A stretch of DNA of 41,365 bases, taken from assembly GCA_016875015.1 (NCBI GenBank), contig VGSJ01000020.1:1-41365 (forward strand). Direction: 5' to 3'. The notes beneath the pieces are model-generated. The model was not told where the DNA came from. It made no database searches and saw nothing but the letters and a program-made list of their open reading frames with translations. The translations under genes were made by a program, and so were the position numbers. The DNA is from Deltaproteobacteria bacterium (GTDB lineage Bacteria; Desulfobacterota; Desulfobaccia; Desulfobaccales; 0-14-0-80-60-11). Numbering within the stretch: the first letter of the stretch is position 1; each line of letters starts with the position of its first letter. Shown here piece after piece: positions 1,888-9,577 of this stretch.

Positions 1888-2070
1888 ACAATAATTTCGG
1901 TCACGGCATATCCGTTGCAATTTTTGTCGACGTGTACATAATTTGGTATAAAGAACTTGTTCCGTGGCTGATCCGCCCTGGCGCCGTTATGGTCGCCATT
2001 GAGCTGAATTCCTTGCCGGAGAGCCACCTTCCCTATATTTACATTCCACCGTGAGGCAGGAGGGGGTATG

Positions 2071-2679
2071 ATGCGCATGATACTGATATTATTGGTGTTT
2101 ATGCTTTTGGTGGGCCATGACGGGACGGCCCTGGCGGCGAGCGCCAAGGCAACGTCATTGCGGCAAGCCAACGCCCTGACCGCTTTTACCCCGCCCGAGA
2201 AGTTCCTGGCCGGCAATTTCGTGGCCGACGAAATGAACCCCGGGGTCATTTTCGGTTCGGTGAAAGCCTTTGCCGCCTCTCGCCAATGCCCCACGACCTG
2301 GCTCATCGAGGCGGGTGATAAAAACCGCCCGGCCGGGCCAGGCGCCCCGGACAAGCCCGTGGAGTATACCCTCTACCTGGAGGAGGACTGCCCGGACCGG
2401 GTGGTTTATTACGTCTTCATCGACCAGAGCGGCTTGACCCCCCAGCAATGGATCGAATGGCGGGAAAAATTCCACCGGAGTAAGGCGGAACCGCAGTATG
2501 GCTCAACCAAATCTAACCTGGACCAGGCCTGCGCGGATGGCTGCGGGGTTGGCGCCGAACTGCGTTTCATCCAGAAGGACGGGGAACTCATGGCCAAATC
2601 TCCGGAAGCGGTCTTGCGACACGATCTCAAAATTGCCCCGATCTATGATTTGAACCATAAGAAGAAAATCTCCCCCTAG
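2071..2679 (+). CDS. Exported protein of unknown function
   Basis: About 202 residues starting with a hydrophobic signal peptide (a run of I/L/V/M, then a likely cleavage after ALAA near residue 23). No family is recognised. The mature part is soluble-looking, with two paired cysteines in a CADGCGVG segment and single cysteines in RQCPTTW and EEDCPD, so disulfides in the periplasm are possible. AGGAGG at 2058-2063 fits ATG 2071 best (7-nt spacing); ATG 2068 and 2077 are alternatives. The gene ends 21 bp before the DUF6599-like gene on the same strand, so it may belong to the same transcript as the redox cluster. Confidence 0.8.
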   Translation: MRMILILLVFMLLVGHDGTALAASAKATSLRQANALTAFTPPEKFLAGNFVADEMNPGVIFGSVKAFAASRQCPTTWLIEAGDKNRPAGPGAPDKPVEYTLYLEEDCPDRVVYYVFIDQSGLTPQQWIEWREKFHRSKAEPQYGSTKSNLDQACADGCGVGAELRFIQKDGELMAKSPEAVLRHDLKIAPIYDLNHKKKISP

Positions 2680-2700: not shown

Positions 2701-3714
2701 ATGGCACGACGAAAGGCAAAGGTGGGCGCGGCCCAGAAGCTGACCGGTTACGGGATTTTAGCCGTGCTGGGCTTGATCGCCGTCGGACTGCTCATCCAGC
2801 AGTCCCGCTTCAACCCCGCGGTGATCGTGGCCATGCGCGGCCCTGAGCTTACGGGCCGGCCCCAGGCCGCGTCCACCCAGGCCCAGGCCGCCACGGCCGC
2901 GCTTATCCCCGAGGTCTCCGGATTCACCCCCCTGGCCCCCACCCAGAGCTACGGCCCGGAAAACCTCTCCGACAAGATTGACGGCAAGGCCGATCTCTAC
3001 CTCGCCGCGGGCTTCAAAGAAATGTCCTGCCGCAGCTTCGGCCTGGGCGCCGTAGAGGGGGCGCACGTGGAGGTGTTCCTCTACGATATGGGTTCAGCCC
3101 CCAATGCCTTTGCCGTGTTCAGCGGTCAACGCCGTTCCGGTTCCCCCAGCAGTTCCCTGACCGCCAATGCCTATGCCACGACCAATGCCTTGTTCTTCAC
3201 CCAGGGGCGGTTTTACGTGGAAATTGTGGCCGACCGGGCCTCGGAGACGCTGCAAAAATCCCTGGAGGCTTACGCCACCGCGCTTCTGGCCAAAATTCCC
3301 GCCGAGGGCGAAACCAAGGACGCGGCCGCCCTCTTTCCCAAGGAAGGCCTGGTGCGGGAAACCGTCCGCCTGTGCGCCGCCGACACCTTTGGTTGTGAGG
3401 GTTTGAATAACATGCTCACCGGGGAATACAGCCTGAAGAGCGGTAAAGCCACGGCCTTTGTCGCAGTCCGCGACACCCCGGAACTGGCCCAGGCGGAGGC
3501 GCGGCGCTACCTGGATTTTCTGGCCGCCAACGGTTACCGGAAGGTTCAGACCCCGGGCTCGCCGGGAGACATCCCGGCGCTCGTCCTGGATAACTCGTTT
3601 GAAATGGTCTTTGTCGAGGGCCGGACTTTGGCCGGGGTGCATGATGCGACCACGCTGGAAGCCGCTCTGGAACTCGCCGCCAAATTGCGGAACGAACTCA
3701 AGGAGAAGCCATAA
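2701..3714 (+). CDS. DUF6599-like membrane-anchored protein
   Basis: A 337-residue protein with a cytoplasmic N-terminus rich in Lys/Arg and one transmembrane anchor (about residues 16-34, GILAVLGLIAVGLLIQ). A large extracytoplasmic part follows. The segment around residues 85-105 (ENLSDKIDGKADLYLAAGF) matches what I know of the DUF6599 family, where an ENLY-x-IxG-A-ELY motif recurs. Two halves of similar alpha/beta character follow. Function is unknown. In deltaproteobacteria such proteins occur beside DUF362 and 4Fe-4S proteins, as here. It probably sits on the outer face of the membrane with the Tat-exported partners encoded downstream. A weak GGAAGA sequence precedes the ATG. Confidence 0.72.
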   Translation: MARRKAKVGAAQKLTGYGILAVLGLIAVGLLIQQSRFNPAVIVAMRGPELTGRPQAASTQAQAATAALIPEVSGFTPLAPTQSYGPENLSDKIDGKADLYLAAGFKEMSCRSFGLGAVEGAHVEVFLYDMGSAPNAFAVFSGQRRSGSPSSSLTANAYATTNALFFTQGRFYVEIVADRASETLQKSLEAYATALLAKIPAEGETKDAAALFPKEGLVRETVRLCAADTFGCEGLNNMLTGEYSLKSGKATAFVAVRDTPELAQAEARRYLDFLAANGYRKVQTPGSPGDIPALVLDNSFEMVFVEGRTLAGVHDATTLEAALELAAKLRNELKEKP

Positions 3715-3866
3715 ACAACGATAAAGTTAAGCTCCTCATAAGTGCAATGGTTTGCATAATATTGATGAGTTGCGGGATACTATTCTGGCCTACACTTTAT
3801 CGCTACGACGGCATGAGAGATGGTAAAAAGACAATACCAGTACCTAATACGTCATCGTATTTATGA
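3711..3866 (+). pseudogene. Relic of a small single-span membrane protein gene
   Basis: An A+T-rich open frame overlaps the end of the DUF6599-like gene and ends in TGA overlapping the ATG of the DUF362 gene (ATGA). Read from an ATA at 3711 it encodes about 51 residues: a short charged N-terminus (NNDKVK), a hydrophobic span (LLISAMVCIILMSCGILF), then WPTLYRYDGM and a tail ending VPNTSSYL. WPTLYRY followed by a PVRINR-type segment is a recurring small-protein pattern in proteobacteria, and here the tail stops after the first few residues of it. The only ATG lies inside the membrane span at 3747. Without a normal start and with a truncated tail, I read it as a decayed gene. Base composition differs sharply from both neighbours. 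Confidence 0.45.
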
Positions 3867-4888
3867 AATTGACCACTAAGGAACAAGAACGGCTACAAAC
3901 CCGCGAGTTGAACCGCCGGGATTTCCTCAAGCGGATAGGGTACGCCTCCGCCCTGGCCCTGGCCACCGGCGGCCTGGGCCTGGCCCTGTATGACCCGAAA
4001 GGCCCCGCCCCGGCCGAGGGACAGAAGGCGTTGACCGGATTGGGGGATTTCAGCCGGCGCGCCATGGCCCCGGGGCAGGCAAAAATGGCCATCATCCGGG
4101 GCACGGACCGGGCGGTGATGGTCGAGCGGGGGGTCAAGGCCCTGGGAGGGATGGAGTCCTTTATCGGCAAGGGCGACCGGGTGCTCATCAAGGTCAACGC
4201 CGCGTTCGCCACCCCGGCCTCCCTGGGGGCCACCACCCACCCGGAGACCCTCGCCGCGGTGGCCGGCCTGTGCTTCAAGGCCGGGGCGGCCCAGGTGCTG
4301 GTGACGGACAATCCCATCAACAATCCCGACAGCTGCTTCGAGATCACCGGGCTGGCCGGGGCGGCCCGGGCCGCCGGGGCCAGGGTCATCGCCCCCCGGC
4401 CCGCCCTGTTTGCGCCCGTCAGCCTGCCCGGGGCGAAGCTCCTCCAAAACTGGCCGGTCATGGCCGGGGCCTTCACGGGCGTGACCAAGGTCATTGTGGT
4501 CTCCCCGGTCAAAGACCACCAACGCGCCGGGGCCTCCATGACCCTCAAAAATTACTATGGTTTCCTGGGCGGGCGGCGCAACGTGTTCCACCAGGACATC
4601 AACGGCATCATCACCGAGCTGTCCCAGTTGCTCAAGCCCACCCTGTGCGTCCTGGACGGCACGGTGAGCATGATGACCAACGGCCCCACCGGCGGGTCCC
4701 TGTCCGATCTGAAGGACACCGGCACCATGGTGGTCGCCACCGACCCCGTGGCCGCGGACGCGGTGGGGGTGGAACTGTTGGGGCGCACCCTGGCCGACGT
4801 CCCCTACATTCTTATGGCTGAGAAAGCCGGGGCAGGGCAGGCCGACTATCGCCGGCTCAACCCGGTGCTGCTTAACACCAGCGCTTAA
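3863..4888 (+). CDS. Tat-exported DUF362 domain protein
   Basis: A 341-residue DUF362 protein. A twin-arginine signal is plain at residues 17-23 (NRRDFLK), followed by an alanine/glycine/leucine-rich hydrophobic region to about 42. The protein should therefore fold in the cytoplasm and be exported, probably with a cofactor or partner. The DUF362 core spans about residues 75-330, including VLIKVNAAF, THPETLAAVAGL, VSPVKDHQRAGASMTLKNYY and ATDPVAADAVG. Its reaction is unknown; members are often fused to or encoded beside ferredoxins. No Shine-Dalgarno sequence precedes the ATG, and its start overlaps the stop of the relic ORF, so translational coupling to that frame is possible. The next gene starts 17 bp downstream, indicating an operon. 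Confidence 0.85.
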   Translation: MKLTTKEQERLQTRELNRRDFLKRIGYASALALATGGLGLALYDPKGPAPAEGQKALTGLGDFSRRAMAPGQAKMAIIRGTDRAVMVERGVKALGGMESFIGKGDRVLIKVNAAFATPASLGATTHPETLAAVAGLCFKAGAAQVLVTDNPINNPDSCFEITGLAGAARAAGARVIAPRPALFAPVSLPGAKLLQNWPVMAGAFTGVTKVIVVSPVKDHQRAGASMTLKNYYGFLGGRRNVFHQDINGIITELSQLLKPTLCVLDGTVSMMTNGPTGGSLSDLKDTGTMVVATDPVAADAVGVELLGRTLADVPYILMAEKAGAGQADYRRLNPVLLNTSA

Positions 4889-4905
4889 GTCACGGGCAAC
4901 CCCTC

Positions 4906-6639
4906 ATGCGCATCGTCACCGTCCGCCGCATCAGCCAAATCTTCTTCCTGGTGATCTTCCTGTGGTTCTGCGTCACCGCCACCCTGGGGGCGAATTGGTG
5001 GCAGTTGCGCGGCTGGCCCATCAACTGGATCCTGGACCTGGACCCCCTTACGTTCCTGGCTACGGTCCTGGCCACCGGCACGCTCTATGCGTCCCTCACC
5101 TGGGCCCTGGTCGTCATCGGGCTGACCCTGTTCGTGGGCCGGTTCTTCTGCGGCTTTGCCTGTCCCCTGGGCACGATCAACCAGGCAACCGGCTGGGTGG
5201 CGCGGCGGGGGCTTAACCTGGCCGGCCGGATGGAGGCCAATCGCCACCGCCGGCTGCAATCCTTGAAATACTACTTCCTGGCCTTCCTGCTGGCCCTGGC
5301 CTGGATGGGGTCGGTGCAAACCGGGATTATTGACCCGCTGCCCCTGCTGCACCGCAGCGTCAACCTGGCCCTGTTCCCCTTAGCCGATAACGGTTTGGGC
5401 GCGCTCAGCGACGAGCCGCGCGCTTACGCCTCGGCCTGGCTCATCGGGGTCGTGTTCCTGGGGGTGGTGGGCCTGAACCTGGTCCTGCCCCGGTTCTTCT
5501 GCCGATTCATTTGCCCTCTCGGGGCGCTGTTCGGCTTGTTGGGCCGCTTTTCCCCCTGGCGCATCGGTAAAACCGAGGATAACTGCGGCGATTGCCAAAT
5601 CTGCGAGCACTACTGCGAAGGGGCCTGCCGTCCCTCGGGAACCTTCATCGGCGGCGAGTGCGTGTTGTGTATGAACTGCATGAATCGCTGCCCTGCCGGA
5701 CGGGTCACTTTTGCAGGTTTCCCCTCCGCGGCCGGGGAAGTCGGGCTGCCGGATCTGTCCAGACGCGGCTTCATCGTGGCCGGGGCCGGGCTGCTCGTGG
5801 CCTCCATGTGGGAGGTCGGCGGGCTGGCCGGGGCGGGCCGCGACCCCGGCCTCATCCGTCCACCCGGGGCCCTGGACGAGGGCCGCTTCCTGGCCCGCTG
5901 TATCCGGTGCGGCCAATGTATGCGCATCTGCCCCGGCAACATCATCCAGCCCGCCCTGTTGGAGGCCGGGGTGCAGGGCCTGTGGACCCCCGCGGTCAAC
6001 TACCGCATCGGCCGCAGCGGCTGCCAGCCCAACTGCATCGCCTGCGGCCAGGTCTGCCCCACCGCGGCCATCCGCCCCTTAAGCCTTGATGAGAAGCAAG
6101 GCACCGGCGATTTCGCGGCTCAGGGGCCGATCCGTATGGGCACGGCCTTTGTGGACCGCGGCCGCTGCCTGCCATGGGCCATGGACCGGCCCTGCCTGGT
6201 CTGTCAGGAATTGTGCCCGGTGAGCCCCAAGGCCATCTTCACCCGCACCGGGTTCGAGGCCATCCGGGACGGCGAGGCCCTCCAGGCCAGGGTTGAGGGC
6301 TCGGGGGTGGACCTGGAGGCCGCCATCCCCGCCGGGGCGAACCTGGCCAGCGGGGACTACTACCTGCGCCCGGCCGGGCAGCCCGAGGCCGCGCTCCGGC
6401 GCATCACCGGCGTGTCAGGAACCAGGCTGACCCTGGAGCGTCCCCTGGCCGCCGACGGCCTGGCGGCAGACAAGGCCCGGGTGGATATCGTGGTGCGCTT
6501 GGCGCGGCCTTTCGTGGACGCCGCCAGGTGCATCGGCTGCGGCATGTGCGAGCATGAATGCCCGGTATCGGGCCGGCGCGCCATCCGCGTTTACAGTGAA
6601 AACGAATCCCGTTCACGCTCGGGGCGCATGCTCATTTAG
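4906..6639 (+). CDS. NapH/NapG-like polyferredoxin membrane fusion protein
   Basis: A 577-residue membrane iron-sulfur protein. The N-terminal half resembles NapH/MauN: several membrane spans (about residues 10-26, 50-76, 120-140, 175-200) and the two family motifs C82xxxCP and C199xxxCP. A cysteine-rich stretch (residues 227-265) contains CGDCQIC and CVLCMNCMNRCP. At 284-300 there is a second twin-arginine-like signal (SRRGFIVAGAG, arginines 286-287). After it come NapG-type ferredoxin motifs: CIRCGQCMRICP, CIACGQVCP, CLVCQELCP and CIGCGMCEHECP. Family knowledge: NapH/NapG pass electrons from quinol to periplasmic reductases. The gene context suggests a similar relay to the exported DUF362 and aldo/keto-reductase proteins; the acceptor is inferred. 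Confidence 0.85.
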   Translation: MRIVTVRRISQIFFLVIFLWFCVTATLGANWWQLRGWPINWILDLDPLTFLATVLATGTLYASLTWALVVIGLTLFVGRFFCGFACPLGTINQATGWVARRGLNLAGRMEANRHRRLQSLKYYFLAFLLALAWMGSVQTGIIDPLPLLHRSVNLALFPLADNGLGALSDEPRAYASAWLIGVVFLGVVGLNLVLPRFFCRFICPLGALFGLLGRFSPWRIGKTEDNCGDCQICEHYCEGACRPSGTFIGGECVLCMNCMNRCPAGRVTFAGFPSAAGEVGLPDLSRRGFIVAGAGLLVASMWEVGGLAGAGRDPGLIRPPGALDEGRFLARCIRCGQCMRICPGNIIQPALLEAGVQGLWTPAVNYRIGRSGCQPNCIACGQVCPTAAIRPLSLDEKQGTGDFAAQGPIRMGTAFVDRGRCLPWAMDRPCLVCQELCPVSPKAIFTRTGFEAIRDGEALQARVEGSGVDLEAAIPAGANLASGDYYLRPAGQPEAALRRITGVSGTRLTLERPLAADGLAADKARVDIVVRLARPFVDAARCIGCGMCEHECPVSGRRAIRVYSENESRSRSGRMLI

Positions 6640-6691
6640 CCTTGAGGACCGAAGTCGCCATCGTGAAGCCGATAGGCACGGGAGTAACTAT

Positions 6692-7162
6692 TTGGAAGCA
6701 ATTACAAAACACTCAGCAGCCAGAGCGGCCGAAGAAGCTGTTGTCCTTTGGAGTCTCGCAAGTACGCAGTTTTCGAAAAATAATGCACTCTTCCTGGAAG
6801 AAGCTTCGGCGTGCATGATTGAGGTAGTAAGTGCTTTTGCGCTTAATGCACGTCGCATGATAGAATCTGTTGAAAACAGGCCAAAGTTTTTGCTCTCTCA
6901 GAAGCGCTGGAGATGGAAGCCTACCAAGAAAGGGGTGGTAGTTTCAGAGCTGTGGGACGCTCTGAACAGGATAATTCATGCCAAGAAGCTCTTGGTTGGC
7001 TTTGAGTCGTTGCCAGACAATATTTCTGTTATAGATGGTGGTGCTGTTGTAATACCTTATATACAGGCTGAAACCGACAGGCGTGATCTCGCATTTATTG
7101 ATCCTTTCGCGTGTGCTCATGCATATTTATATGAGGTGTATCCGCTCGTATTCAGGACTTAA
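6692..7162 (+). CDS. A+T-rich orphan protein of unknown function
   Basis: An open frame of about 156 residues if it starts at TTG 6692, which has GGGAG at 6680-6684 with 7-nt spacing. An upstream ATG at 6554 would overlap the polyferredoxin gene and gives an unnatural N-terminus. The protein looks soluble and mostly helical. A segment SELWDALNRIIHAKKL contains an NRxIH-like helix seen in some uncharacterised HEPN-like proteins, but I would not assign it. Codons are visibly A+T-rich compared with both neighbours, which points to recent acquisition. It interrupts the redox cluster between the polyferredoxin and aldo/keto-reductase genes. Confidence 0.5.
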   Translation: MEAITKHSAARAAEEAVVLWSLASTQFSKNNALFLEEASACMIEVVSAFALNARRMIESVENRPKFLLSQKRWRWKPTKKGVVVSELWDALNRIIHAKKLLVGFESLPDNISVIDGGAVVIPYIQAETDRRDLAFIDPFACAHAYLYEVYPLVFRT

Positions 7163-7210
7163 TGATATGGACATTAAGGTATTAGCATAGGAACCAGAAA
7201 AGCCATGATT

Positions 7211-7301
7211 TTTACCCCCCTTTTCTAAAGGGGGGCAGGGGGGATTAAATAAGCACTTAATAATCCCCCTAAATCCCCCTTTAAAAAAGGGGGACTTTGG
7301 T
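7211..7301. repeat. Fold-back repeat, copy 1
   Basis: About 90 bp of two hairpin modules (CCCCCTTTTCTAAAGGGGG and AATCCCCCTTTAAAAAAGGG) joined by ATTAAATAAGCACTTAATAAT. A near-complete copy lies inverted at 16161-16243, a half copy at 26733-26790 and a short relative near 148-172. It is a dispersed non-coding element that may also terminate transcription. Confidence 0.75.
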
Positions 7302-7352
7302 TCCACAATATTTGGTTCGTATTATTCTCTATTACGATAGGAGGTGTCTAAC

Positions 7353-8585
7353 ATGACCCGGAAGAAGGAAGAAACTGGCTTTACCCGCAGGGATTTCGTC
7401 AAGACCGTCGGCCTGGCCGGCCTCGCCGTGGCGGGGTCTGGCGTGACTGGGGCCATGGCCGCGCCGGAGCCGCCGGCCGGCGCGGCCAAGGCCGCGACCA
7501 TGCCCAAACGCAAGCTGGGCAAAACCGGGGTGGAGGTGTCCATCCTCAACCTGGGCTGCATGTTCGACACTATCAACAACCAATTGCTCCTCAAGCAGGC
7601 GATGAAATGGGGCGTCACCTTCTGGGACACGGCCGAGGCCTACGGCAACGGTCTGAGCGAAGAGGGTCTGGGCCGCTTCTTCGCCCGCAACCCCGAGGCC
7701 CGGAAAGAGATCTTCCTGGTCACCAAGCTCGTCCCCAAGGAAGGCAACCTCACCGAGCGCTTGAATAACAGTCTCAAACGGCTGCAGACGGAATACGTGG
7801 ATCTTTTCTTTATCCACGCCATCACCGGCATCAACGACATGACCCCGGCCTTCAAGGCTTGGGCTGCGGAGATGAAGAAGGCCGGCAAGATAAAATTCTT
7901 CGGGTTCAGCACCCACACCAACATGGAGGATTGCTTGCTGGGCGCGGCCAAGCTGGACTGGATCGACGCGGTGATGATGACCTACAACTTCCGGGTCATG
8001 CACGCCCCGAAGATGCAAGAAGCCTTGAACGCCTGCGAGAAGGCCGGGATCGGGTTGGTGGCCATGAAGAGCCAGGCCGGCGGGCCGGGGGCGAAGAAGG
8101 AAGCCAGCGAGGCCAAGCTGGATATGGCCGAACGCTTCCTGGCCCGGGGGTTTACGGACAAGCAGGCCAAGCTCAAGGTCGTGTGGGAGAACCCCCAAAT
8201 TGCCAGCCTCTGCTCCCAGATGCCCAACCTGACTATCCTTTCGGCCAATGTGGCCGCAGCCCGGGACCAGGTCAAACTGGCCCGGGAGGAGTTCGATTCC
8301 CTGCGCCAGTATGCCCTGGGGACCCAGGCCGACTACTGCGCCGGCTGCAGCAACCTCTGCCAGGAGGCCGTGGGCGGGGCCGTACCCGTGAGCGAAGTCA
8401 TGCGCTGCCTCATGTACCACCGGTACTATGGGGAGCCGGAGCTGGCCAGGCAGACCTTTACCGGGCTGCCCGAGGCGATTCGGCAGCGGTTGACCGAGGT
8501 GGACTACTCCCGGGCTGAACAGGCCTGTCCGCAACGGTTGGCCATCGCCCAACTCATGCGCCAGGCCAAGGAGATGTTGGCCTAA
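7353..8585 (+). CDS. Tat-exported aldo/keto reductase with C-terminal 4Fe-4S motif
   Basis: A 410-residue protein. Residues 11-16 (TRRDFV) plus a hydrophobic Ala/Gly stretch to MAAP form a twin-arginine signal. The aldo/keto reductase barrel spans about residues 55-320 and keeps the full catalytic tetrad: D92 and Y97 (FWDTAEAYG), K125 (VTKL) and H155 (FIHA). The C-terminus carries C329xxC332xxxC336 and C392-P, the 4Fe-4S arrangement of iron-sulfur AKRs. Most AKRs use NAD(P)H in the cytoplasm. An exported one with a cluster more likely exchanges electrons with a membrane partner, for which the polyferredoxin encoded upstream is the obvious candidate (inference). AGGAGG at 7339-7344 sets the ATG at 7353. 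The substrate is unknown. Confidence 0.88.
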   Translation: MTRKKEETGFTRRDFVKTVGLAGLAVAGSGVTGAMAAPEPPAGAAKAATMPKRKLGKTGVEVSILNLGCMFDTINNQLLLKQAMKWGVTFWDTAEAYGNGLSEEGLGRFFARNPEARKEIFLVTKLVPKEGNLTERLNNSLKRLQTEYVDLFFIHAITGINDMTPAFKAWAAEMKKAGKIKFFGFSTHTNMEDCLLGAAKLDWIDAVMMTYNFRVMHAPKMQEALNACEKAGIGLVAMKSQAGGPGAKKEASEAKLDMAERFLARGFTDKQAKLKVVWENPQIASLCSQMPNLTILSANVAAARDQVKLAREEFDSLRQYALGTQADYCAGCSNLCQEAVGGAVPVSEVMRCLMYHRYYGEPELARQTFTGLPEAIRQRLTEVDYSRAEQACPQRLAIAQLMRQAKEMLA

Positions 8586-8651
8586 AACTGCCACGTGACA
8601 GTTGTGCCTGGCCTGAAAGAAGTGGTGGAAAATTTTTCAAGGGAGCGTCTT

Positions 8652-8753
8652 ATACCGTGTTCCCTTTGAAATGAAACAAACCATCCAGATAACCTATTGA
8701 TATCTCTCGTAGGGGCGGGTTTCAAACCCGCCCCTACAAAACGAACACGGTAT
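8652..8753. mobile_element. 102-bp MITE-like element, copy 1
   Basis: A 102-bp element bounded by perfect 11-bp inverted repeats, ATACCGTGTTC and GAACACGGTAT. Near the right end it holds a perfect GTAGGGGCGGGTTT palindrome with a one-base centre. Identical copies lie at 16034-16135 and 37435-37536. The TA at each end would fit TA target duplication of an IS630/Tc1-type transposase, which is inference. It has no coding capacity of its own. Confidence 0.85.
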
Positions 8754-8793
8754 TACGCACCACTTGACTGTACTTGGCAGGGGAGGTGAATCG

Positions 8794-8997
8794 ATGCGAG
8801 GGAAAAATCCCTGGCGCAATATTGGTCTGGTTATCCTGGCCCTGGCCGTTTCTTCAGCAGGCTGCGCCCAGACCCCAACCTTTCTCCAGGAAGATGGCGC
8901 CGCTTACCAACGACATGAACAAATGATCATGTCGCCGGAGCCTTCCGGCCAATCAACCGACCAGTCTCTCTATATGGACATGGAAGGTGGAGGTTGA
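8794..8997 (+). CDS. Small lipoprotein
   Basis: A 67-residue protein with a basic N-terminus (MRGKNPWR), a hydrophobic span and a lipobox-like SSAGC, giving lipidated Cys at about residue 24. The mature part is only about 44 residues, Gln/Ser/Met-rich and acidic. No family is recognised. GGAGG at 8782-8786 is 7 nt before ATG 8794. Its gene starts 40 bp after the MITE, which probably separates it from the aldo/keto-reductase transcript. It may be an outer-membrane-attached peptide of unknown role. Confidence 0.6.
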   Translation: MRGKNPWRNIGLVILALAVSSAGCAQTPTFLQEDGAAYQRHEQMIMSPEPSGQSTDQSLYMDMEGGG

Positions 8998-9243
8998 CGG
9001 CCAGGCCAGGCTTGAGAAAGATGAGAGCGCTGATCCTGATGGCAAGACCGGCGGCCCGGGCGACTACAAGGCCGGGGGCGCCCTGCATGACCTTACTTGT
9101 CAGCCTGGATGCACCTCGTTCAGTTCTCCTTAGAGCCAGGTAGGGCCGCCAAACCTGGCGGCGGCAGCAAAAGGGGGAATCATTGACGCTGATTTTGAGG
9201 TGCCGTGTCTGCGGGAGGGGGGCCGGGGGACGCTTATAAAAAA
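8998..9243. other. Non-coding spacer after the lipoprotein gene
   Basis: No convincing reading frame is seen. A short GCCGCC-loop-GGCGGC hairpin lies at 9145-9162 without a T-run. Nothing else is recognised. Confidence 0.4.
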
Positions 9244-9531
9244 ATCAACGGTGTCCGGTAAGGTTTTTGCATTAGAGGAAGCTCGTTATCCTTAGCATAA
9301 CAGTCCATAAATTCGCCAAGGTATTTCTTAACGCGGTGAAGATTACTTCCCCCTCACCCTAACCCTCTCCCCCATTGGGGGAGAGGGGAAAAGATGGAGC
9401 CGATTTAAGGCTCTACGGCCATGAAGCCCGACGACGTAACCTACCCCCTCTCCCCCCGTTTCGGGGGGAGAGGGTTGGGGTGAGGGGGGGCAGAACCACC
9501 GCATGCAATTTCCTAACCGGACACTGCTGAT
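9244..9531. mobile_element. 288-bp non-autonomous element with GTGTCCGGT ends
   Basis: The ends are inverted: the left 20 bases (9244-9263, containing GGTGTCCGGTAAGG) match the reverse complement of 9512-9531 (containing CCTAACCGGACAC) at 17 of 20 positions. Both ends abut ATAAAAAA, a possible 8-bp target duplication. Inside, CCCTCACCCTAACCCTCTCCCCC near 9352 is inverted again near 9443-9490, forming long hairpins. There is no coding capacity. It is probably mobilised by a transposase encoded elsewhere. Confidence 0.6.
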
Positions 9532-9577
9532 AAAAAATACGAAAAAACGACCCCCCCCGGCTCTCCCCTGAAAAACT

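Follow-up and report, generated by a model that had tools for sequence, protein, structure and literature searches.

A conserved four-gene cluster that may link a predicted Tat-exported aldo/keto reductase to a transmembrane polyferredoxin

Aldo/keto reductases (AKRs) are generally considered to be NAD(P)H enzymes of the cytoplasm, and NapGH and MauMN are the ferredoxin modules of quinol dehydrogenases. Tooke et al. 2017 (PMC5449189) described a polyferredoxin (PFD) in which NapH and NapG are fused, with five transmembrane segments, seven predicted 4Fe-4S clusters and, immediately preceding the last of these segments, a twin-arginine motif. The membrane region of one such protein, that of the delta proteobacterium MLMS-1 (Q1NSB0), was shown in Escherichia coli to be inserted by the Sec and the twin-arginine translocation (Tat) systems together; the paper covers membrane insertion only, and its text was found to give nothing on partners of the protein and no mention of aldo, DUF362 or operon (PMC5449189). 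Here, we analyzed a 41,365-nucleotide stretch of DNA (the window; contig VGSJ01000020.1 of assembly GCA_016875015.1, Deltaproteobacteria bacterium). It comes from a genome of 3.1 Mb (completeness 99.96%), in which it is contig 20 and which, to judge by its named relatives, belongs to the Desulfobaccales. The open reading frame (ORF) listing and the Pfam and NCBIfam matches agreed in placing four genes in order on its plus strand, encoding a DUF6599 protein, a DUF362 protein with a Tat motif, a NapH-NapG fusion polyferredoxin and an AKR with a Tat motif (Table 1). The same order had been read in an earlier note made from the sequence without database searches. We propose with moderate confidence that the products of the four genes make up a single redox unit outside the cytoplasm, in which the AKR would be wired by its cluster to the transmembrane polyferredoxin.

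The linkage of the four genes was investigated by scanning a species-genome collection with an alignment of the AKR, which yielded 80 loci. All four genes were present in 32 of these, and in 32 of 32 they were ordered DUF6599-DUF362-PFD-AKR on one strand. Most four-gene loci spanned 4.8-6.6 kb; L088 and L098 carry extra genes before the AKR, and L103, an apparent exception to the order, was an artefact of its stop-to-stop ORF. These loci came from several groups of Desulfobacterota and from Sumerlaeota/BRC1, Planctomycetota and Verrucomicrobiota, and a contig of Rhodothermota (L111) carried DUF362, PFD and AKR. Within the class (29 genomes), order and strand were the same wherever contigs allow, as in G011:C230, G012:C22, G016:C95, G019:C72 and G024:C29. 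The earlier note had tied its reading to conserved linkage in related genomes, and such linkage was thus found across several phyla.

Co-occurrence was examined in an evenly drawn phylum sample of 297 genomes. Strong orthologues of the AKR were present in 24 genomes and those of DUF362 in 22; 20 genomes were shared, compared with 1.8 expected. DUF6599 was found in 38 of the 40 genomes having any Tat-type AKR (E <= 1e-40), against 80/297 overall. By hand count, 18 of the 24 genomes with a strong AKR carry the cluster on one contig, three have it cut by contig ends, and three lack the neighbours (G097, G209 and G312). In addition, the divergence of all four proteins was correlated, with rho of 0.71-0.81 versus at most 0.39 in permutations. 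Since the p values for co-occurrence were 1e-4 at the class level and 4e-25 and 4e-23 at the phylum level, the gene arrangement is not due to chance.

Table 1 Features of the cluster and its surroundings in the window
Feature	Position	Strand	Remarks
up203, secreted protein	2068..2679	+	Signal-like hydrophobic segment at the N terminus; fifth member in some lineages, immediately upstream of DUF6599
DUF6599 protein (PF20244)	2701..3714	+	Pfam E 8e-50; one N-terminal membrane anchor, extracytoplasmic domain (predicted)
DUF362 protein	3863..4888	+	Pfam E 3e-38; Tat motif NRRDFLK; invariant H219, K229, H243
DUF362 Tat motif NRRDFLK, residues 17-23	3911..3931	+	TIGR01409; RR conserved
Polyferredoxin (NapH-like membrane part and NapG-like part)	4906..6639	+	Fer4_5 and several Fer4 dicluster models (Pfam); NCBIfam
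Polyferredoxin internal Tat motif SRRGFI, residues 285-290, before last transmembrane helix	5758..5775	+	Alignment of homologues
ORF of no known family, between polyferredoxin and AKR	6554..7162	+	Lineage-specific insertion; outside conserved unit
AKR, Tat-exported (predicted), 410 aa	7353..8585	+	Pfam Aldo_ket_red E 7.5e-33; GGAGG at 7340-7344
AKR Tat motif TRRDFVK	7383..7403	+	TIGR01409 18.9 bits, cut-off 16.7

The start of the AKR was placed at ATG 7353 rather than GTG 7344 because of the position of the GGAGG given in Table 1. From this start, the tetrad is D92/Y97/K125/H155 and the cysteines are C329/C332/C336/C392, exactly as the earlier note had listed them; the numbering used below is that of the 413-aa frame, in which they are D95/Y100/K128/H158 and C332/C335/C339/C395. 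The match to the PF00248 barrel covered profile positions 24-244 of 291. We compared 48 operon-linked homologues with 18-19 cytoplasmic relatives. The tetrad was invariant in all 48 linked AKRs, while C332, C335 and C339 were conserved in 47 of them and C395 in 46. A C-x2-C-x3-C motif with a C-P much farther along is similar to half a ferredoxin site, and the four-cysteine site is therefore likely to hold one [4Fe-4S] cluster. The protein SpiR (PMC13079761), considered as another possible cluster-bearing AKR, was unrelated.

As in Tat substrates, both the AKR and DUF362 have an (S/T)RRxFLK-type motif followed by a hydrophobic region. The AKR exceeded the cut-off of the NCBIfam Tat-signal model TIGR01409, and DUF362 reached it (16.7 bits, cut-off 16.7). 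The twin arginines were conserved in 46-47 of the 48 linked AKRs and in 31 of 31 DUF362 homologues, and TatC is encoded in the window genome. Export of the AKR by Tat, which the earlier note had suspected from its signal, is thus well supported by motif and conservation. A relative of the AKR at G312:C52:4460-5542 (L150) lacks the Tat motif, and its tetrad Asp and Tyr are replaced by Glu and Ile; it keeps the four cluster cysteines.

The residues in contact with NAD(P)H were then compared by sequence alignment, with positions mapped by sequence motif to what we take to be their AKR1B1 numbers. The canonical contact set is not present in the operon-linked AKRs. Position 211 (Q183 in AKR1B1) was Met in 45 of 48 linked proteins and Gln in 18 of 18 cytoplasmic relatives, and position 292 (K262) was Gln in 39 of 48 compared with Gly in 18 of 18. 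Position 298 (R268) was mostly Ile, Leu or Val in the linked AKRs, in contrast to Gln or His in the relatives, and the E271 equivalent was mostly Ala or Ser. Furthermore, position 242, the equivalent of S210, was Lys in all 48 linked AKRs and Glu in 19/19 relatives. More distant AKRs linked to DUF6599 keep the tetrad, the Tat motif, the cysteines and Lys242, and at the Q183 position they have Leu in most cases. These comparisons provide good support for an altered NAD(P)H site and, to that extent, for the earlier note's reading; the equivalents of S159 and N272 are kept. Judged by its sequence, the window protein is an AKR superfamily member on account of its fold and tetrad, and is not placed among the NAD(P)H-dependent AKRs.

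The nearest cytoplasmic counterparts are ferredoxin-tailed AKRs (COG1453-like; L118-L135, from Clostridia and relatives), which share the AKR barrel, the tetrad and the C-terminal cluster cysteines. Unlike the exported group, they mostly have no Tat signal region, and they conserve the Q183 equivalent, the loop Gly and Glu242, all of which are replaced in that group.

The polyferredoxin consists of a NapH-like membrane part, with CX3CP and cysteine motifs predicted on the cytoplasmic side, and a NapG-like part with four cysteine motifs; the internal Tat motif precedes the last transmembrane helix. No variation was seen among 24 homologues at the cluster cysteines or at R286/R287. NCBIfam models recognised both halves, NapH/MauN with 70 of 213-234 bits and NapG/MauM with 54-67 of 179-269 bits, scores that lie far below the curated cut-offs. 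In contrast to the NapGH and MauMN modules, the two parts are fused here and no nap or mau enzyme genes stand alongside; the partner is an AKR. The fusion, the cysteine motifs on both membrane sides and the Tat motif directly before the last transmembrane segment are shared with the MLMS-1 protein. By these features, the window polyferredoxin is a member of the Sec/Tat dual-targeted PFD family, for which Tat dependence was shown with the MLMS-1 protein.

The earlier note had regarded DUF362 as a redox or assembly partner of unspecified type. Our analysis suggests a change of this assignment: DUF362 is probably better described as a protein with a predicted LarA-like fold. An AlphaFold2 model (pLDDT, the predicted local distance difference test, 89.6) gave six matches in the PDB with E < 0.001, all LarA-related (4nar being listed only by its UniProt name); the best had an E value of 8.5e-5 at a probability of 1.00, with TM-scores of only 0.36-0.45. 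A profile-profile comparison with LarA was weak (probability 10%, E 0.003); it aligned, unguided, H219 with His174 and K229 with Lys184 of LarA. In LarA, His174, Lys184 and His200 bind and use the nickel-pincer nucleotide. H243, also invariant, follows K229 at a distance of 14 residues (the corresponding distance in LarA is 16) and is matched to the Ni-ligand His200 by spacing only. The pattern H-x9-K occurred in 44 of 44 DUF362 proteins and 17 of 17 LarA homologues, and H-x9-K-x(13-15)-H in 41/44 and 17/17, compared with 2/159 unrelated proteins; the other three DUF362 proteins have the His after 12 residues. Sequence search found no relative of known structure for DUF362 or DUF6599, the matches being to signal peptides or due to chance.

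Pfam clan CL0471 joins DUF362 and the LarA domain (PMC11770544). DUF362 resembles the LarA or nickel-pincer-nucleotide racemase superfamily (PMC11770544, PMC12611868) in its predicted fold and in the equivalents of His174 and Lys184, with a further His that by its spacing may correspond to His200, and differs in being predicted to be Tat-exported, in being smaller and in having no equivalent of LarA Arg75 and His108 at the aligned positions. Published single-histidine LarA homologues lack His174, whereas in DUF362 the His174 equivalent is the one retained. LarC and LarE are encoded in the window genome; for a nickel-pincer role their presence is uninformative, since LarC occurs in 252 of the 297 sampled genomes. 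A nicotinate-type cofactor in DUF362 is a lead from these residue patterns and not a result. Taken furthest, the lead would give an extracytoplasmic hydride or electron relay, in which a Tat-exported DUF362 with a nickel-pincer or related nicotinate-derived cofactor, the polyferredoxin and an exported AKR that gave up NAD(P)H would couple carbonyl/alcohol hydride chemistry to membrane electron transport; we consider this a long shot.

DUF6599 has a transmembrane-like segment at residues 14-32 and an internal alpha/beta repeat in its extracytoplasmic domain. Its model (pLDDT 87.6) found no confident fold match in the PDB; TP0453 and RseB came up as weak fold relatives (TM-score about 0.2) and were not used.

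Rearranged loci indicated how the genes group. The order is AKR-DUF6599-DUF362-PFD in L146 and DUF6599-AKR-DUF362-PFD in L153, L154 and L155. The AKR-DUF6599 pair stands alone in L140-L145, L147 and L148, and almost all of the 29 class genomes carry a second DUF362-PFD pair that lacks the AKR (L136, L137, L139; e.g., L136:7333-10128). Since each pair also occurs separately, the unit is a combination of an enzyme pair with an electron-transfer pair: the specific companion of the AKR is DUF6599, and DUF362 and the polyferredoxin make up the other module. In L141, L145 and L148, from three genomes of the same family, the AKR-DUF6599 pair adjoins a histidine kinase gene and a gene for a tungsten-type aldehyde:ferredoxin oxidoreductase (AFOR), which gives a weak hint that the pair is concerned with aldehyde chemistry.

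The proposed unit would function as follows. The AKR would be folded, loaded with a cysteine-bound cluster, probably one [4Fe-4S], and then exported by Tat; it would perform carbonyl/alcohol chemistry at its normal tetrad, and its cluster would exchange electrons with the outer part of the polyferredoxin, not via turnover of diffusible NAD(P)H. With iron-sulfur clusters on the cytoplasmic side, four more outside and an outer domain delivered by Tat, the polyferredoxin could pass electrons across or along the membrane. DUF6599 may be a membrane-anchored partner of the AKR, for docking or assembly. DUF362, exported by Tat and with a LarA-like fold, may be the partner of the polyferredoxin and might contain a cofactor derived from nicotinate. 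The physical complex, the electron path, its direction and the cofactors are what we infer here. Electron delivery to the AKR through the polyferredoxin, the direction advanced in the earlier note, appears plausible; the potentials do not favour this direction if menaquinol is the donor, but it would work with a low-potential cytoplasmic donor.

Several observations weigh against a unit wired in this way. A [4Fe-4S] cluster passes single electrons and the AKR tetrad normally performs hydride transfer, so that a hydride-carrying cofactor is still needed. The contact residues were assigned by sequence alignment and not on a structure of the window AKR, and two residues of the nucleotide site are retained, S189 (equivalent to S159) in 48/48 and N302 (equivalent to N272) in 47/48 linked AKRs, so nucleotide binding is still possible. 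In the distant DUF6599-linked AKRs, position 301 is often acidic and the loop Gly is usually kept, which argues for an NAD(P) site that is altered and not necessarily empty. As for the linkage, the AKR occurs without the other genes in G209, G312, G097:C34, L102 and L108, DUF6599-DUF362-PFD occurs without an adjoining AKR in G060, and the window genome itself carries an insertion between polyferredoxin and AKR.

With a quinone link, thermodynamics makes it easier to oxidise an alcohol and feed menaquinone than to run the unit reductively. A respiratory dehydrogenase, which is the proposed unit with its direction fixed, is a possible though tentative alternative: electrons taken by the AKR from an alcohol or a sugar hydroxyl in the periplasm would go through the polyferredoxin to the menaquinone pool or the cytoplasm. 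Sequence does not fix the direction of NapH/NapG-like modules, alcohol oxidation with menaquinone is downhill, and the AFOR genes beside the distant AKR-DUF6599 pair would fit. However, only one lineage shows that neighbourhood, and the full cluster does not; the characterised NapGH moves electrons outward from quinol.

The chief competitor to the wired unit, and in our estimate a rather unlikely one, is that the exported AKR binds NAD(P)(H) tightly and regenerates it by itself, the nucleotide being co-exported by Tat and the cluster being structural or serving to re-oxidise the nucleotide. Tat exports folded, cofactor-loaded proteins, of which the Zymomonas glucose-fructose oxidoreductase is the textbook case, and the retained tetrad, S189 and N302 are compatible with a bound nucleotide, as are the loop Gly of the more distant linked AKRs and the conserved Lys242, which lies near the pyrophosphate position and could hold a phosphate. 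Against this, the carboxamide contact (Q183 equivalent) and the adenine/2'-phosphate contacts (K262, R268 and E271 equivalents) are replaced in the operon-linked group, the first three of these four being sharply unlike those of the cytoplasmic relatives, and the conserved neighbours DUF362 and polyferredoxin are left unexplained.

It is improbable that DUF362, DUF6599 and the polyferredoxin serve to mature or repair the exported AKR, by cluster insertion or refolding, rather than as its electron-transfer partners. DUF6599 does travel with the AKR specifically, and its model weakly resembles the periplasmic non-enzymes TP0453 and RseB, but the cluster motifs of the polyferredoxin are strictly conserved, and polyferredoxin and DUF362 exist in genomes without such an AKR, both of which speak for the polyferredoxin having its own part in electron transfer. 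A chance or neutral neighbourhood of unrelated redox genes in one metagenome-assembled genome, with which the insertion between two of the genes would agree, has a negligible probability and is refuted by the order kept across phyla, the correlated divergence and the strong co-occurrence.

If the wired unit exists, it would constitute a periplasmic, membrane-tied branch of carbonyl/alcohol metabolism in sulfate reducers, Planctomycetota, Verrucomicrobiota and Sumerlaeota. The cluster would also provide a functional setting for the Sec/Tat polyferredoxin family, an experimental orphan, and would make DUF362 and DUF6599 testable proteins; no functional literature on either was found in the literature searched. 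The NapGH-like part is known, and the four-gene composition appears to be undescribed in that literature: as the earlier note had supposed, no such pathway turned up, neither DUF6599 nor DUF362 together with a polyferredoxin was mentioned, and the mentions of DUF362 looked at were silent on function, at least one being actually a longer DUF number. The cluster is present in the cultured species Solidesulfovibrio aerotolerans and S. alcoholivorans.

A fifth gene, up203, which the earlier note did not mention, ends 21 bp 5' of the DUF6599 gene and had no Pfam or NCBIfam match. Its homologues were identified in nine loci, recurring beside the four-gene cluster or beside the AKR alone; in L073 and L108, whose AKR gene has none of the other three beside it, up203 lies directly 5' of the AKR. 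It is kept beside the AKR in Desulfobaccales, Solidesulfovibrio and Syntrophobacteraceae, and belongs to the cluster in some lineages. No further recurrent neighbour of the cluster was found, the apparent families being antisense shadows, histidine kinases or ABC ATPases.

The gap between polyferredoxin and AKR in the window is about 0.7 kb and contains the ORF at 6554-7162 and a G/C-rich inverted repeat (~7208-7310); elsewhere, the spacing can be as short as ~30 bp (G011). Otherwise this insertion, which the earlier note did not mention, was seen only in two near relatives; a full-length ORF related to the one here was found only in L056 and L072. A 3.4 kb contig, G023:C359 (L003 / L056), from a genome that belongs to a different family within the order, encodes an AKR 100% identical to that of the window and is probably mis-binned. 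The stretch of about 1 kb 3' of the AKR (8595-9577) has no ORF of at least 80 aa and no Rfam match. A CRISPR system, considered from an NCBIfam Cas14 match of the ORF at 478-1887, was dropped, as the match had 408 bits against the cut-off of 800 of this type VII model; the ORF encodes an ordinary beta-CASP metallo-hydrolase RNase.

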